From a virus, in IMG/VR virus record IMGVR_UViG_3300029309_000176, positions 1 to 32,572 of that record: a stretch of DNA of 32,572 nt. One strand, given 5' to 3'. Position 1 is the first letter of the stretch; the number at the start of each line of letters is the position of its first letter. Below the pieces are notes generated by a model. That model saw only the letters and a list, made by a program, of their open reading frames with translations. It made no database searches and had not been told where the DNA came from. Positions 3,367 to 29,345 of the stretch are shown here, one piece after another. Both the position numbers and the translations under genes were made by a program.

Positions 3367-4293
3367 ATGAGCAATATTATTTGTTTTTGGTCTAAATATG
3401 ATAATGAAACAAACATTAATGATTGGTTATATAAAGAAATAGAGTTAAATGAGTTTCATAAATTCTCTTTGTTATCGCAGTTAAAGTACAACAAAAATGT
3501 GTATTTATACACTTACCAAAAGTTAAAAAATGTGCCTGAAGGTATTAATGTTGAGTATGCAGGAAAAATATTTAATGAAAATCTAGCTTTTCGATCATTA
3601 AAACTCGGCCACCATATTGCACACATAAGCGATATTGTGCGTATGCGTATGGCAATTATGCTAAATGGGGTAATTATGGATATGGATATGGTTGCTTTAA
3701 GACCTTTACCTGATATAAATGCGTTTTTTTCAACAGGACCTGCTAAATCAGAAGGAGCTATGGCTATAAAATGGAAGGATAACCACCCACCCTTTAATAT
3801 TGTTGATAATTCATGGGACGGAAAAGCGCTTAGCTTCTTCCCATGTAAAGTTGGTCTTGATATGGAAAAAGATATTTGGGTATTAATTGAAAGAATAAAA
3901 GAACAGTTATCTCGGCCACCAATTAAAAATACAAAGGGTTGGAATTATATAATGTGGAGTATAAAAGATATTGCTAATAAAAATCCTCATATTAAAGTGT
4001 TTCAGCCTTTATATTGTGGAGTAATACCTGTATGGAAAGGAAAAAACAACTGTTATTCTCTTGATTATCCAACAAAATTTGATGGATCAACAAAATTATT
4101 TGGTTATCGTATGCCTGATATTCAAGAAATACTTAATAATTCCTTTATTGTTGGTCATTATTTTGAAAGCGCTTTTAAAGGTTCAGGAAAATATAAAAAT
4201 ATTTGGGATAATATAAAAGAAGGAAGCCTACTTTATGCTGAATTAGAGCATGTACTTGGCCACCAATGGAAAGAAATATTAAATGGAAACTGA
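3367..4293 (+). CDS. Glycosyltransferase with DXD motif (GT32-like)
   Basis: A 308-residue protein. Residues 75-115 contain HISDIVRMRMAIMLNGVIMDMDMVALRPL, with the D105-M-D107 motif and the preceding helix typical of glycosyltransferases with the DXD sugar-binding motif (GT32/Gly_transf_sug type). Such enzymes bind a nucleotide sugar through a metal ion held by DXD. No membrane anchor is visible. AAAAGGAAA precedes the start and the end overlaps the large terminase by 11 bases, so it is part of the late operon. Capsid, tail or DNA glycosylation, or modification of host surface sugars, are all possible. The acceptor cannot be inferred. Confidence 0.75.
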   Translation: MSNIICFWSKYDNETNINDWLYKEIELNEFHKFSLLSQLKYNKNVYLYTYQKLKNVPEGINVEYAGKIFNENLAFRSLKLGHHIAHISDIVRMRMAIMLNGVIMDMDMVALRPLPDINAFFSTGPAKSEGAMAIKWKDNHPPFNIVDNSWDGKALSFFPCKVGLDMEKDIWVLIERIKEQLSRPPIKNTKGWNYIMWSIKDIANKNPHIKVFQPLYCGVIPVWKGKNNCYSLDYPTKFDGSTKLFGYRMPDIQEILNNSFIVGHYFESAFKGSGKYKNIWDNIKEGSLLYAELEHVLGHQWKEILNGN

Positions 4294-19176: not shown

Positions 19177-19752
19177 ATGCCTTTAGGTGCAGCTAGATTT
19201 GGTCTAAGCGGAAGTGGCGTTCAAGATCTTGTATTAATACAAAGTCAGACACCAAGTGCAGTTGCAAACATAGATTTTACTAGCATTGATGAAAGTAAAT
19301 ACAATATACACTTTGTAACTTATACTCTTAAACCTGCAACAGATAACGCTACTTTAGGTTGTAGATTTATAGAAGGTGGAACTGTTGAAAGTAGTAGCGT
19401 TTATAAAGAAGGACATTTTGAAATATTATCGCAGGGTAATAATGAAGATAGTAACGCACAAATACATTACAGAAGTACAAGTCGTGATCATATTAGAGTT
19501 GGCGAAAATACAGGTAATTCAACAGGCGAGGGTGGAAGTGGTTATTTTTACATATACAATGCAGGAGATAGCAACATATTTACTTCACTAACTTGTCATA
19601 ATGCAGGACTAAATAATAGTAATAATTTGTTAAAAGCACATGGTGGTGGAACTATGAATCAAAAAAGCACAGTTGATGGATTTAGAATATTTGATAAGAA
19701 TAATGGTGGTAATCTAACAGGTAAGATTTCTTTATATGGGGTTACTTTATGA
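19177..19752 (+). CDS. Fibre/receptor-binding-like protein, paralogue 1
   Basis: A 191-residue beta-rich protein. With the next two genes it shares a pattern: an N-terminal strand block, a middle with Asn, Ser and Gly, and an ending in STVDGFRIFDKNN...TGKISLYGVTL. Marine phage tail-fibre tips often end in a K-I/V-x-L-Y-G-x motif. TTAGGAG precedes ATG 19177. The stop overlaps the next start by 4 bases. Together with its paralogues it may give several receptor specificities. Confidence 0.65.
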   Translation: MPLGAARFGLSGSGVQDLVLIQSQTPSAVANIDFTSIDESKYNIHFVTYTLKPATDNATLGCRFIEGGTVESSSVYKEGHFEILSQGNNEDSNAQIHYRSTSRDHIRVGENTGNSTGEGGSGYFYIYNAGDSNIFTSLTCHNAGLNNSNNLLKAHGGGTMNQKSTVDGFRIFDKNNGGNLTGKISLYGVTL

Positions 19753-20270
19753 GCGTAAAAAAAATAAAATCAGTTGAATTAACAACAGGTGTTCAATCTA
19801 TGCAAATAGATGACATATTTTCTAATGATTTTACTTTATATAAGATAGTTGGCGTTGGAATAGTTGGACAAAACTCAACTGATACTGCTACAAATATAAG
19901 ATTAGTAAAAGCGTCTGACGGTAGCGTTGAGAGCGGAAGTATTTATGAGTATGCAATATATAACTTAAAAGCCGATTCAAGTTTTTCTGATAGTGAAACA
20001 ACAAGCGATACTCGGTGGTTTAACACTTTTGGTGGCTCAGATGATAGTGGCAGGGCAGGTAATGGGGTTGTGTATGTTGGCAATCCATTTCAAGCGTTTT
20101 CATCTGCTTGTATTTGGGAAGCAACAGAATATAATTCAGACAATCACAGGTCAAGGTGGGGTATTGGTAGAATACAAAATACAACTTCTTATGACGGTAT
20201 TGTGGTTGATATGAACGAGAGTGCAAGTAGAATTGGTGGTGGGAAACTTGTGGTGTATGGAATATTATGA
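19749..20270 (+). CDS. Fibre/receptor-binding-like protein, paralogue 2
   Basis: A 173-residue protein of the same type as its neighbours. It begins with a different strand block (IKSVELTTGVQSMQIDDIF) but shares the ending TTSYDGIVVDMNESA...GGKLVVYGIL. Overlaps on both sides (TTATGAG and ATTATGAG) imply coupled translation in fixed ratio. The sequence is more diverged than its neighbours, as expected for host-recognition proteins. Confidence 0.62.
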   Translation: MSVKKIKSVELTTGVQSMQIDDIFSNDFTLYKIVGVGIVGQNSTDTATNIRLVKASDGSVESGSIYEYAIYNLKADSSFSDSETTSDTRWFNTFGGSDDSGRAGNGVVYVGNPFQAFSSACIWEATEYNSDNHRSRWGIGRIQNTTSYDGIVVDMNESASRIGGGKLVVYGIL

Positions 20271-20800
20271 GTAGTTTTGTTGAACTAAGTACGGCAACTG
20301 CTAGTAATAGTGGCTCTGTTACATTAACAGGAATAACAAGCGATTACAATGTTGCAGTTTTATTCTATTCTGATGTAGTTCCTGCAACAGACGGGGCAGA
20401 TTTAACAGGTAGATTTACGCAAAGTGGAAGTGCAAATTCAAACAGTAACTATGTTAGTGGAATTGCTTACGCAAGAAGTGATAGGTCTTTTATTTCGAAT
20501 TCAGGCGATAACTTAGGATTAGCAGGTAGAAGTTCTTTTAGTATGTCAGGCTCAACAGATAATTCAAGCACTTCAGGACATATTGGGGTTGCTTATATAT
20601 ATTCAGCAAATAATAGTAGCGATAATACTTATTTGGTTATGTATAACAATTATCTTTCTTCAGGAGGAACTCAAATAATGTTGGGACAATTTGAGGGAGC
20701 AATTTTAAAAGAACAAACAACTGTTGACGGAATAACTATTTTTATGGATACAGGAAACATTACAAAAGGTAATTTTGTTTTATATGGCTTAAAACAATAA
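20267..20800 (+). CDS. Fibre/receptor-binding-like protein, paralogue 3
   Basis: A 177-residue Ser/Asn/Gly-rich beta protein that ends TTVDGITIFMDTGNITKGNFVLYGLKQ, in parallel with the two proteins before it. Start overlaps the preceding stop. It is the last of the three tandem paralogues, followed by a 29-base gap. A receptor-binding or tail-tip decoration role is inferred from composition and position only. Confidence 0.62.
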   Translation: MSSFVELSTATASNSGSVTLTGITSDYNVAVLFYSDVVPATDGADLTGRFTQSGSANSNSNYVSGIAYARSDRSFISNSGDNLGLAGRSSFSMSGSTDNSSTSGHIGVAYIYSANNSSDNTYLVMYNNYLSSGGTQIMLGQFEGAILKEQTTVDGITIFMDTGNITKGNFVLYGLKQ

Positions 20801-26226: not shown

Positions 26227-26258
26227 GACAAAAGCCCATATATTTATGGGCTTATGTC
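26227..26258. terminator. Strong hairpin, possible terminator
   Basis: GACA-A-AAGCCCATA, loop TATT, TATGGGCTT-A-TGTC: 13 base pairs with one A-A mismatch. It lies between the gene ending at 26138 and the ParB promoter, so it would end the upstream transcript. The plus-strand tail is not T-rich, whereas the minus strand has TTTTGTCTTT, so it may act mainly as an RNA 3' end or in both directions. Confidence 0.6.
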
Positions 26259-26304
26259 TAACAGGGGATAAATTACTTTTTATCTATCTTATAATATCAT
26301 TTTT

Positions 26305-26321: not shown

Positions 26322-27383
26322 ATGAACACAGAAAAGATACCAATTGACAACTTAAAATTTGATCTAAATAATGTCAGGAAGCATGATGATAACTCAATAA
26401 AAGCAATTGCAAATTCTTTATCAGCATTTGGCCAAAGAAAACCAATTGTAATTGATCAAAATAATACTGTTATTGCAGGGAATGGAACATTAAAGGCAGG
26501 TATTTACTTAGGCTTAAAAGAATTAGATTGTGTTAAAGTTCCTGATGATTGGAGTAAAGAAAAAATAAAAGCCTTTGCTATCGCCGATAATAAAACACAT
26601 GATTTATCAGAATTTGATAATGAACTTTTATTAAACACTCTACAAGAACTTAATGAGTTCGAAATAGAAGTAACTGGATTTGAGGCAGATGAACTTGAGG
26701 ATTTAATGATGTTCAAAAAAAATCCTTTCAAAACAATTAAAATTGATATAAATGAACTGAAACCACACCCGAAAAATTACCAAGAACACCCTGAGGATCA
26801 ATTAGAGCATATTATAAACTCAATAAACACACATGGCTTTTACAGAAATATAGTGATCGCTAAAGACTTTACAATTTTAGCGGGTCATGGAGTTGTTGAA
26901 GCAGTAAAAAAAATGGGCTCAATAAAAAGAGTTCCTGTAATTAAACTAAATATTGATAGCAACTCAGTTCAAGCTTTAAAAGTGCTTACTTCTGATAACG
27001 AAATTTCACAATTAGCACAGGTTAATGATAAAGCACTTACCAACTTGCTTAAAGAAATACTTGAACTTGACGACACAATATTAGGAACAGGATATAACGA
27101 GGATCAATTATCGGCTTTAGCTTATACTTCAACAACAAAAAACGAACTCGGCAATAAACAAGACGCAGATGATTGGGTAGGAATTTTTGAACACGAACAA
27201 AGACCTGAAGTTTTTAGTGTTGTTGTTAAATTTGAAAGCAACGAGGATAGAGAAAAATTTGTTGAGGAAAAAGGTATTGAGAACTTTCATAATCAAAGAG
27301 GAAATGTATGGAGCACATATTGGCCTTACAGAGATAAAGATGATGTCAGTAATCTTTTCTTAGTTGATGATGACGAAAATTAA
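26322..27383 (+). CDS. Double ParB-like domain protein
   Basis: A 353-residue protein from ATG 26322 (TTG 26304 would lie in the promoter). The first ParB N-terminal domain covers about 3-85, with RKHDDNSIKAIANSLSAFGQRKPIV and GNGTLKAGIYLGL. A second covers about 143-230, with LKPHPKNYQEHPEDQLEHI and the variant GHGVVEAVKKMG. The C-terminal 70 residues form another domain (FSVVVKFESNEDREKFVEEKG). In phages, ParB-fold proteins like this lie beside DNA methylases or base-modification genes and are nucleases or nucleotide-using enzymes rather than partition proteins. The neighbour below supports this view. Confidence 0.8.
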   Translation: MNTEKIPIDNLKFDLNNVRKHDDNSIKAIANSLSAFGQRKPIVIDQNNTVIAGNGTLKAGIYLGLKELDCVKVPDDWSKEKIKAFAIADNKTHDLSEFDNELLLNTLQELNEFEIEVTGFEADELEDLMMFKKNPFKTIKIDINELKPHPKNYQEHPEDQLEHIINSINTHGFYRNIVIAKDFTILAGHGVVEAVKKMGSIKRVPVIKLNIDSNSVQALKVLTSDNEISQLAQVNDKALTNLLKEILELDDTILGTGYNEDQLSALAYTSTTKNELGNKQDADDWVGIFEHEQRPEVFSVVVKFESNEDREKFVEEKGIENFHNQRGNVWSTYWPYRDKDDVSNLFLVDDDEN

Positions 27384-28263
27384 ATATCCAATATTTATAA
27401 TATCAAAAGGCAGGCATGATGTAGGTTATACTGCAAAAATGTTTTTAAAAGATAAAGTACCTTTTAAAATTGTTGTAGAGCCTCAGGAATTTGATGACTA
27501 TTCAAGATTTTTTGATGAAAAATTACTTATAAAAACTCCTTTTAGCAATTTAGGTCAGGGATCAATACCTGTAAGAAACTTTTGTTGGGATATGGCTGAG
27601 GAAATGGGAGCAGAAAGACATTGGGTATTTGACGACAATATACGATACATGCAGGCTTGGTATAAAGGAAAAAGACTTCATTGTCAAAGTACATTAGGAA
27701 TAAAGGCAGTTGAAAAATTTACTGATCGATATGAAAACATAGCAATATCAGGTATGAATTACAGTTTTTTTGTAGTTCCTAAACAAAATGTCAATATCCC
27801 TGCATATATTACAAACACAAAAATTTACAGTAATTTATTAATTAAAACAGATTTAGATTTTCGGTGGCGAGGAAGGTATAACGAGGACACAGACTTATGC
27901 TTACAAGCACTTAGTAAAGGATATTGTACAGTTCAAATTAATAATTTTATGATTCAAAAAAATCAAACAATGACTATGAAAGGTGGGAATATGAGTGAGC
28001 TTTATCAGGGAGATGGAAGGCTAACAATGAGTAAAAGTTTAGAAAAAATGTGGCCAAGAGTTGTTGTGACTTCAAGAAAATTTGGAAGGCCACAACACCA
28101 TATAAAGAAAAATTGGAGACAATTTAATACTCGATTAATACCAAGAAAAGATATAAATTGGGATAATATTGAACAGGAAAAACTAAACATAACTGCAACT
28201 GATCGAGGTATTGAAAGTGAATATTTAAAAAAATTTGTAGATGAGATAAATGATAAAAAATAA
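27367..28263 (+). CDS. Glycosyltransferase resembling TET-associated (TAGT) family
   Basis: A 298-residue protein. It opens YPIFIISKGRHDVGYTAKMF, continues PFKIVVEPQEFDDYSRF and IPVRNFCWDMAEEMGAERHW, and has the putative metal/nucleotide-sugar motif VFDDNIRYM. These blocks resemble the TAGT glycosyltransferases proposed to add sugars to oxidised or hypermodified DNA bases. A later WRGRYNEDTDLCLQAL fits the acidic catalytic region. It overlaps the ParB gene by 17 bases. No TET/JBP oxygenase or cytosine methylase is present in the window, so the acceptor base or other acceptor is unknown. Confidence 0.7.
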   Translation: MMTKIKYPIFIISKGRHDVGYTAKMFLKDKVPFKIVVEPQEFDDYSRFFDEKLLIKTPFSNLGQGSIPVRNFCWDMAEEMGAERHWVFDDNIRYMQAWYKGKRLHCQSTLGIKAVEKFTDRYENIAISGMNYSFFVVPKQNVNIPAYITNTKIYSNLLIKTDLDFRWRGRYNEDTDLCLQALSKGYCTVQINNFMIQKNQTMTMKGGNMSELYQGDGRLTMSKSLEKMWPRVVVTSRKFGRPQHHIKKNWRQFNTRLIPRKDINWDNIEQEKLNITATDRGIESEYLKKFVDEINDKK

Positions 28264-28792
28264 TAGAGAATTTGATATTAAAGAAAATGAAAGTTATACA
28301 GAGTGGAAAATAAGAAAAAGTCAAGAAAATAATTTACCTTCTAGCATGAGTCAAAGAAATAGCAGTAAAAACTCTATTGGTCTTTGTAAGAATACAAATG
28401 AAAAGAAAAATATTTGTAAATGTAAAGCTTGTATTGCAAGAAGGAACAGAAACAAAGGACGCAGAAAACAAAATCAAGCTCGTAAATTACTTAAAATACC
28501 TTCAAACAGATTTGCAGGTGCAGACGCACACGAGGAAAATTGGAGCACAGGTATTCGTGTTGAAGTAAAATCAGGAAAACAGGTTAAGCCTTTTGCTACG
28601 GCTTTTTACAAAGGTAAATTACAAAGTGACACAAACCATAAGGCGATAGGTACAGGATCAAAGCCTTTTGCTTATGTTGCTATGCCTGACGGAAAAAATA
28701 CAGGTATTATTGCACTTGAAATAAAAGATTTAGAAAATTTTTGTTTAGAAGTTTTAAAAAATTTTGGATATTCATTAGATTATGAACAGTAA
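28250..28792 (+). CDS. PD-(D/E)XK nuclease, Holliday-junction resolvase-like
   Basis: A 180-residue protein overlapping the previous gene by 14 bases. A Cys cluster (NICKCKACIARRNRNKGRRKQ) lies at about 53-73, then a basic helix and the nuclease core ENWSTGIRVEVKSGKQV, whose V-E-V-K-S is the (D/E)xK part of the PD-(D/E)XK fold. Similar Cys-plus-ExK proteins in actinophages are annotated as resolvases. It may cut branched DNA during recombination or packaging, or act on modified DNA together with the ParB protein. Confidence 0.65.
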   Translation: MIKNNREFDIKENESYTEWKIRKSQENNLPSSMSQRNSSKNSIGLCKNTNEKKNICKCKACIARRNRNKGRRKQNQARKLLKIPSNRFAGADAHEENWSTGIRVEVKSGKQVKPFATAFYKGKLQSDTNHKAIGTGSKPFAYVAMPDGKNTGIIALEIKDLENFCLEVLKNFGYSLDYEQ

Positions 28793-28877: not shown

Positions 28878-29345
28878 TTAAGTATTAACTGTATTCCATG
28901 CGTTAAATTCACCTAAATAAAACCCTTTTTTATCGGAATACCAAGTATAAGGAACTGCAGGAATATCAGAAAATTGATTATAAAAAATGGGATCTTTTCT
29001 GTATAAATTTGACTGATGACTTCTGTGAAGCCAAAAGTTACCAAGCCAAATAGGCTTATTTTCAGGATAAAGATTTCGATATTGACTGTATTGACTTGAT
29101 ACTTGATCCCAAACAGTATCTTTGTAGCCTTTTTTTATCCAAGTTGTACAAATTACTCTTGTATATTCGTAAAGCCAATTTTCTGAGTCTCTCCACATAT
29201 TAATAATGGGGTGGTGTCTCCAACCTGTGTCTTTTGTAATTGCGTTAAATATTTGTAAGCACTCAACTCTTTGCTTGCCTAATCTTTTATTATCAAGAAC
29301 TTTAGCACTTTCATAAAAATCCTCGTATGGTAAAAATGTCTGCAT
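28878..29345 (-). CDS. Pyrimidine-dimer DNA glycosylase
   Basis: A 155-residue protein and the only gene on the minus strand. It starts MQTFLPYEDFYESAKVLDNKRLGKQRVECLQIF and continues GWRHHPIINMWRDSENWLYEY and WIKKGY, the hallmark order of the Pyr_excise family. Related enzymes (T4 endonuclease V and its mycobacterial relatives) remove UV-made thymine dimers using an N-terminal amine. AGGAGA precedes the start and an extended -10 (TGTTATAAT) lies at 29378-29370. Having its own promoter and direction marks it as a separate repair cassette, useful to a phage in sunlit water. Confidence 0.88.
   Translation of the reverse strand: MQTFLPYEDFYESAKVLDNKRLGKQRVECLQIFNAITKDTGWRHHPIINMWRDSENWLYEYTRVICTTWIKKGYKDTVWDQVSSQYSQYRNLYPENKPIWLGNFWLHRSHQSNLYRKDPIFYNQFSDIPAVPYTWYSDKKGFYLGEFNAWNTVNT

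Follow-up and report, generated by a model that had tools for sequence, protein, structure and literature searches.

Among the known systems nearest to the locus analyzed here are the TAGT enzymes of T-even phages. The TAGT of phages T2 and T6 adds a second glucose to glucosylated hydroxymethylcytosine (hmC) in DNA (PMC13216743, PMC13390438), and a published model of the T6 enzyme has a GT-A fold (PMC13216743). The same study, from 2026, reports that 288 of 753 phage genomes have TAGT but neither alpha-glucosyltransferase (alpha-GT) nor beta-glucosyltransferase (beta-GT), which it takes to suggest novel transferases; ParB is nowhere mentioned in its text (PMC13216743). Here we describe a TAGT gene and its neighbors in the marine-phage record IMGVR_UViG_3300029309_000176, a stretch of 32,572 bases with siphovirus-type head and tail genes, which as a whole we call the window. 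Three overlapping open reading frames (ORFs) at positions 26322-28792 encode, in order, a ParB-like protein, the TAGT, and a protein with an ExK motif, and an original prediction made from the DNA alone had read them as a possible DNA-modification cassette. As judged from the gene neighborhoods of relatives, the conserved core is the pair of ParB and TAGT with a small companion domain, that is, two genes and not three. The T-even enzyme (beta-glucosyl-HMC-alpha-glucosyltransferase, PF20691) and that of the window share a Pfam family, the GT-A fold, and active-site residues, and T4-like relatives have the companion domain fused to TAGT. However, the T-even enzyme acts after hmC synthesis and alpha-GT, whereas the window has no recognized hmC pathway and its companion domain sits on ParB. 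The TAGT family is said to have been named, by Iyer and colleagues in 2013, for its association with TET/JBP; the locus differs from TET/JBP-JGT (base J) systems as well, since no Tet_JBP domain scored over the cut-off in the 57 records searched.

The TAGT gene occupies 27370-28263 on the plus strand, with its ATG at 27370 and possible starts at TTG 27364 and ATG 27367, and encodes 297 amino acids. The protein matches PF20691 over the entire profile (E = 2.9e-35; 122.5 bits, cut-off 27.5; positions 1-205 of 205) and phrog_842 (5.6e-42). The motifs on which the original prediction had based its identification of a TAGT-type glycosyltransferase (SKGR, RNF...ERHW, and FDDN) are all present, and together with the Pfam match they confirm it. 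All 113 relatives keep the SKGR arginine, the HW tryptophan, DDN (27631-27639, plus strand), and D173, while E172 is kept in 112 of 113 (ED, 27883-27888, plus strand); the catalytic acidic residues are thus intact. The AlphaFold model, for which 113 sequences were aligned, reaches a mean pLDDT of 87.8 and a pTM of 0.88, and its best matches in the PDB are the GT-A enzymes COLGALT1, LARGE1, heparosan synthase 2, and GT6. These structural matches have E values of 6.5e-5 and weaker and modest TM-scores of about 0.3-0.5, and nearly all of them are GT-A enzymes. The original prediction had staked itself on a GT-A fold for the product of 27367-28263, and that is where the best matches place the model. 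A sequence search against solved structures gave nothing significant.

The gene directly upstream (26322-27383, plus strand; ATG at 26322, alternative TTG at 26304) encodes a ParB-like protein of 353 amino acids. Two ParB_N domains lie at about 26322-26738 and 26739-27137 (plus strand), and PF02195 (ParB_N; 3.8e-8) and phrog_620 (5e-63) each match in two stretches, in agreement with the double ParB-like protein that had been described. The AlphaFold model of this protein resembles ParB bound to cytidine triphosphate (CTP) (7bnr/7bnk; 1.5e-7), and its profile matches Spo0J (6sdk; 3.2e-14). The two sites of the CTP motif GERR read GNGT and GHGV in the window protein, and of 65 ParB homologs, 38 have V at the fourth position and 18 have R. 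Since the arginine of this motif is mostly lost, canonical CTP clamping or use is doubtful. The protein shares the ParB_N fold with chromosome and plasmid ParB, Noc, and KorB, but differs from them in the GERR arginine, in its C-terminal domain, and in its setting, as no ParA was found in Pfam or PHROG scans of the window's scanned ORFs.

The C-terminal domain is a companion domain of about 70 amino acids (27153-27374, plus strand) with a W-V-G-M/I ... F ... P motif, and it is previously undescribed. In the window lineage it forms the C-terminus of ParB, and it is homologous to the N-terminus of TAGTs from phages that lack ParB, including T4-like phages (profile-profile comparison with hhalign, probability 97.6, E = 4.7e-12). 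Among 8,127 ORFs, 132 of 140 matches to the companion domain are fused to TAGT or lie directly upstream of it. T4-like phages also have a second, stand-alone copy of the domain after the TAGT gene (L163:2903-3100; L165:2849-3025).

A TAGT profile search brought up at least 591 contigs of viruses, along with 49 loci from genomes of bacteria or archaea. Pairing was counted at the 137 TAGT loci that have at least 700 nucleotides (nt) of upstream sequence, a sample that leans towards relatives of the window because the queries were the window's TAGT and its kin. ParB is the adjacent gene at 99 of these loci and is fused to TAGT at one, for a total of 100 of 137. The companion domain alone, fused to TAGT or as an upstream ORF, accounts for 32 more (132 of 137 in total), and five loci have neither. 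One locus (L100) encodes ParB, companion domain, and TAGT in a single reading frame, and so does another (L062), with a second TAGT in addition. The divergence of ParB tracks that of TAGT (Mantel r = 0.545, a value reached in none of 2000 permutations). The supported clade that contains the window TAGT has 35 members, and ParB is present in every one of the 34 rows that were classified. Terminase families are the commonest among the genes downstream of the pair. The neighborhood survey that the original prediction had proposed therefore brings out a core of two genes (100 of 137 loci) rather than three. An N6/N4 methyltransferase was rejected as a regular companion of the pair, being present in only 2 of 40 cases. 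Tandem duplicates or head-to-tail fusions of TAGT also occur (L031:2924-4654; L043:437-2118; L063:5225-6885; L135:8016-9865), and such duplication or fusion might serve stepwise sugar addition.

The product of the third gene (28250-28792, plus strand) has a CxC..C stretch and an ExK motif. The latter, E105-V-K107 (28562-28570), does not vary among six homologs, which bears out the motif that had been reported. The identity of an ExK nuclease that had been attached to it is another matter, as the protein matches no Pfam or NCBIfam nuclease profile and gives no significant sequence match to a solved structure. An ExK motif alone is weak evidence for a nuclease, and we regard the product as a possible nuclease. 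The gene is limited to 14 loci, all close kin of the window, and it is not beside the pair in L010, L011, L014, L021, or any more distant ParB-TAGT locus. It adjoins Rad52-like and replication genes, so that a role in recombination is as plausible as a role as partner of the pair. On this distribution the third gene is probably not part of the core, and a three-gene modification and nuclease cassette was rejected as the core because this gene is confined to close kin. What remains of the proposed cassette is the ParB-TAGT pair with its companion domain, accompanied in this lineage by a specific neighbor.

Pairing with ParB recurs in another TAGT clade, a very distant one, which has overlapping ParB and TAGT genes in cultured viruses of unrelated hosts. 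These viruses are Lactobacillus c5, phi jlb1, Nocardia NTR1, P. gingivalis phage005, and the archaeal virus HHTV-2; their TAGT identities were confirmed, and in most of them the pair lies directly before the terminase genes. Rac-type prophages of E. coli belong to this second clade as well. Of 5,426 complete genomes of E. coli, 1,575 contain DNA resembling the pair, which is at least 80% covered in 887. In E. coli strain 7/2 the gene order is trkG-ParB-TAGT-orf-TerS-TerL. The YnaK protein of K-12 is 99% identical to the first 86 amino acids of an intact Rac-type ParB, and by this match ynaK of K-12 is a truncated ParB remnant of a Rac-type ParB-TAGT pair whose TAGT has been lost in K-12 (L168:4878-5141; L169:5001-6717). 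The ydaY gene was ruled out as a K-12 remnant of TAGT, as it has no similarity; K-12 and strain 7/2 share only 391 bp of the stretch tested. The Rac ynaK locus, with its trkG-ParB-TAGT-terminase order in strain 7/2, shares the pair with the window, but it belongs to the distant second clade, the companion domain was not detected on its second-lineage ParB, and K-12 has no TAGT.

Related ParB modules occur with other enzymes. The phrog_498 ParB-methyltransferase fusions, such as gp03 of Verrucomicrobia phage P8625, combine a homologous ParB module with an enzyme presumed to modify DNA, although that enzyme half is a methyltransferase and not a glycosyltransferase. Likewise, IbrA-IbrB-like pairs (Taranis, L338C) place a ParB-like protein beside a possible modifying enzyme, PAPS-reductase-like, but their enzyme chemistry is different and their function putative. 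Because related ParB modules are joined to or adjoin modifying enzymes, and because terminases are the commonest genes downstream of the pair, DNA is, on these contextual grounds, the likely acceptor of TAGT. Microbacterium phage Busephilis (L150:3462-5637) has in a row a ParB gene, a glycosyltransferase gene without a Pfam match, and a UDP-glucose-dehydrogenase-family gene; this arrangement resembles ParB-TAGT, though with a different glycosyltransferase, and points the same way.

The two end gene sets of the window adjoin each other in the relatives L005 and L006. The window genome is therefore approximately complete, and the absence of a gene from it carries weight. No member of the thymidylate-synthase/hydroxymethylase family was found in the 37 ParB-TAGT records, the window included. 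The thymidylate-synthase family is present in all six TAGT phages larger than 100 kb, a comparison with ParB-TAGT records that genome size confounds, and two Vibrio phages of about 47 kb without ParB also lack such a gene. The Tet_JBP searches, run without a positive control, gave no match in the window and none over the cut-off in the 57 records, and a TET-dependent system was rejected, as the sole weak match (in L046) is a PF13640 oxygenase. That oxygenase occurs in 1 of the 37 ParB-TAGT records and is absent from the window; the virus that carries it has three neighboring ORFs resembling 2-oxoglutarate (2OG)-Fe(II) oxygenases (L146:1135-2956), one of which was confirmed by Pfam (4.4e-17). 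Among the window's ORFs that were scanned with Pfam and PHROG, neither alpha-GT nor beta-GT was found, and a GT32-like gene at 3367-4293 gave a weak match (0.012). The absence of TET/JBP oxygenases and methylases that the original prediction had reported is supported for the window phage, as is its idea of another route or another acceptor for the glycosyltransferase. A literature search for DNA modification in connection with ParB-TAGT, ynaK, LL-Ku, and HHTV-2 returned nothing direct.

A nucleotide-sugar dehydratase/epimerase-family gene is present in 10 of the 37 ParB-TAGT records and is often adjacent to the pair. Dehydratase-family genes with a YDEGK motif stand beside ParB-TAGT at L049:1323-2279, L046:4383-5312, L058:6885-7847, and L031:1321-2250, and the one in L049 encodes a protein whose match to human UDP-glucuronate decarboxylase (UDP-xylose synthase) reaches 1.1e-118. 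Such nucleotide-sugar genes beside the pair favor the view that TAGT really transfers sugars, which in some phages may be pentoses. The window lacks a nucleotide-sugar gene and would use a donor made by the host. Between TerS and TerL, at 3367-4293, the window encodes a GT32-like candidate of 308 amino acids that has a weak match to PF04488 (0.012), a conserved DMD motif, and nothing significant among the sequences of solved structures. The same spot holds a PAPS-reductase-like ATPase in L010 (14038-15006) and an MT-A70 methyltransferase in L014 (12872-13414).

The original prediction had also combined the locus with avoided motifs into two layers of anti-restriction. ACGT is indeed absent from the window (0 seen versus 35.2 expected), while GATC is over-represented (136 versus 88.6 expected). 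The relatives L005, L006, L008, L010, L012, L014, and L015 likewise have little or no ACGT. However, L016 has the ParB-TAGT pair and normal ACGT (16 seen versus 16.2 expected), which makes avoidance and pair separable. Thus, the avoidance is real, the two layers are unproven, and motif avoidance was set aside as a sign of modification.

The explanation that we favor, with a probability of roughly 0.55, is that ParB and TAGT form a two-subunit DNA glycosyltransferase in which the ParB-like chain holds TAGT on DNA. The TAGT half, with its GT-A fold, would take a sugar from a nucleotide sugar made by the host or the phage and would attach this sugar to a base in phage DNA. Its ParB-like counterpart would bind TAGT through its C-terminal companion domain and keep it on DNA, much as ParB-like modules of other phages seem to act for the methyltransferases fused to them. 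This domain would be the physical link between enzyme and DNA-binding partner, carried by ParB here but by the N-terminus of TAGT where phages lack ParB. The ExK-motif gene that follows would be a neighbor from the recombination region. A physical ParB-TAGT complex, DNA as the acceptor, and protection from restriction are all inferred from these data. Several observations weigh against the explanation. TAGT and JGT transfer sugar to the primary CH2OH of hydroxymethyluracil or of glucose; the known chemistry needs an acceptor hydroxyl, and no recognized enzyme here would make one. The GERR arginine is gone in most window-type ParB partners, and the strong avoidance of ACGT suggests that those sites are not protected.

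The missing hydroxyl is where the first alternatives part. A version of the favored explanation with its acceptor fixed holds that a hydroxyl-bearing modified base is made by the host or by an unrecognized phage enzyme and that ParB-TAGT only decorates it, as in the T-even phages. This agrees with known TAGT and JGT chemistry, and the three oxygenase-like ORFs in the virus of L046 and the PAPS-reductase-like or MT-A70 gene between TerS and TerL (L010 and L014) speak for it. It has to contend with an oxygenase family that is found in only 1 of 37 ParB-TAGT records and not in the window, and with hosts from very different bacteria and archaea that would all need to supply the modified base; we consider it possible but on the doubtful side. 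Conversely, glycosylation by the pair might be self-sufficient, with the sugar passed straight onto an unhydroxylated base, the ParB-fold subunit serving as a DNA-loading or base-presenting factor, and a pentose, supplied through an adjacent UDP-xylose synthase, probably being transferred in some phages; as a specific proposal this is unlikely. Alternatively, TAGT may act on something other than DNA, such as a phage structural or host protein, RNA, or a cell-surface polymer, with the adjacency of ParB reflecting regulation or use as a scaffold. The best structural neighbors are indeed GT-A enzymes that act on proteins or polysaccharides (COLGALT1, LARGE1, heparosan synthase), although such matches are generic to GT-A; moreover, the pair is often beside head-packaging genes and no modified-base route was seen. 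Given that the TAGTs of published activity act on DNA, that this type of ParB partner is repeatedly attached to enzymes resembling DNA-modification enzymes, and that natural fusions put TAGT on the ParB chain, we regard a non-DNA acceptor as rather unlikely.

The remaining alternatives concern the partners of TAGT. That the ParB-like protein matches ParB, Noc, and KorB in fold would be expected of a standard ParABS- or KorB-like factor for partition or transcription whose gene simply lies next to a glycosyltransferase gene. Fusions, covariation, and the shared companion domain argue against such chance adjacency, as do the lack of ParA in the Pfam and PHROG scans and the loss of most GERR arginines, and we consider it very improbable. 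A single cassette of all three genes, in which the third protein cuts unmodified competing DNA, would account for the overlapping reading frames and for co-conservation of the genes in 13 close relatives. It would not account for the loci described above that have the pair without the third gene beside it (L010, L011, L014, L021, and all more distant loci). Since Rad52-like and replication neighbors fit a recombination nuclease equally and no nuclease profile matches, this cassette is quite improbable.

The genes and overlaps at 26322-28792 agree in their coordinates with the earlier description. The three ORFs overlap by 14-17 nt: the ParB stop at 27383 lies past the TAGT start at 27367/27370, and the TAGT stop at 28263 lies past the third-gene start at 28250. 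Comparison with close relatives indicates purifying selection on all three genes (synonymous divergence, dS, 0.46-0.92; nonsynonymous divergence, dN, 0.05-0.06). The genes had been placed on one promoter; the overlap stands, whereas the single promoter is less well supported, as a promoter search found sigma-70-like sites not to be enriched (10 versus 15.6 expected in shuffles). A 9-bp inverted repeat (AAGCCCATA/TATGGGCTT; 26232-26253, given without strand) just upstream of the ParB gene is terminator-like on the minus strand, and terminator-like stem-loops number one against 0.9 expected by chance. Beyond the third gene, the minus strand at 28878-29345 encodes a pyrimidine-dimer DNA glycosylase of the DenV family (PF03013, 9.6e-23) without a PHROG match, and this gene is kept in L005, L006, L008, and L009. 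Elsewhere, three ORFs starting at 19177, 19749, and 20267 (span 19177-20800; about 175-190 amino acids each) look paralogous from cross-matches in relatives and are probably tail-associated.

Neither the enzyme family nor the ParB fold is new. In the literature searched, no account was found of the conserved ParB-companion-TAGT partnership, of how widely it occurs, or of its presence in the absence of a recognized hydroxylation route, and priority for the bare association is uncertain. Many solitary TAGTs hereby gain a partner, a candidate docking domain, and, in some phages, a sugar donor. HHTV-2, Lactobacillus c5, phi jlb1, and the Rac-type prophages of E. coli provide cultured systems in which to probe the question. 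If true, direct glycosylation would let DNA acquire sugars with no hydroxymethylation, in phages of bacteria and archaea as well as in E. coli Rac prophages. Should DNA be the acceptor, ParB-TAGT may rank among the most widespread arrangements for DNA glycosylation in phages.

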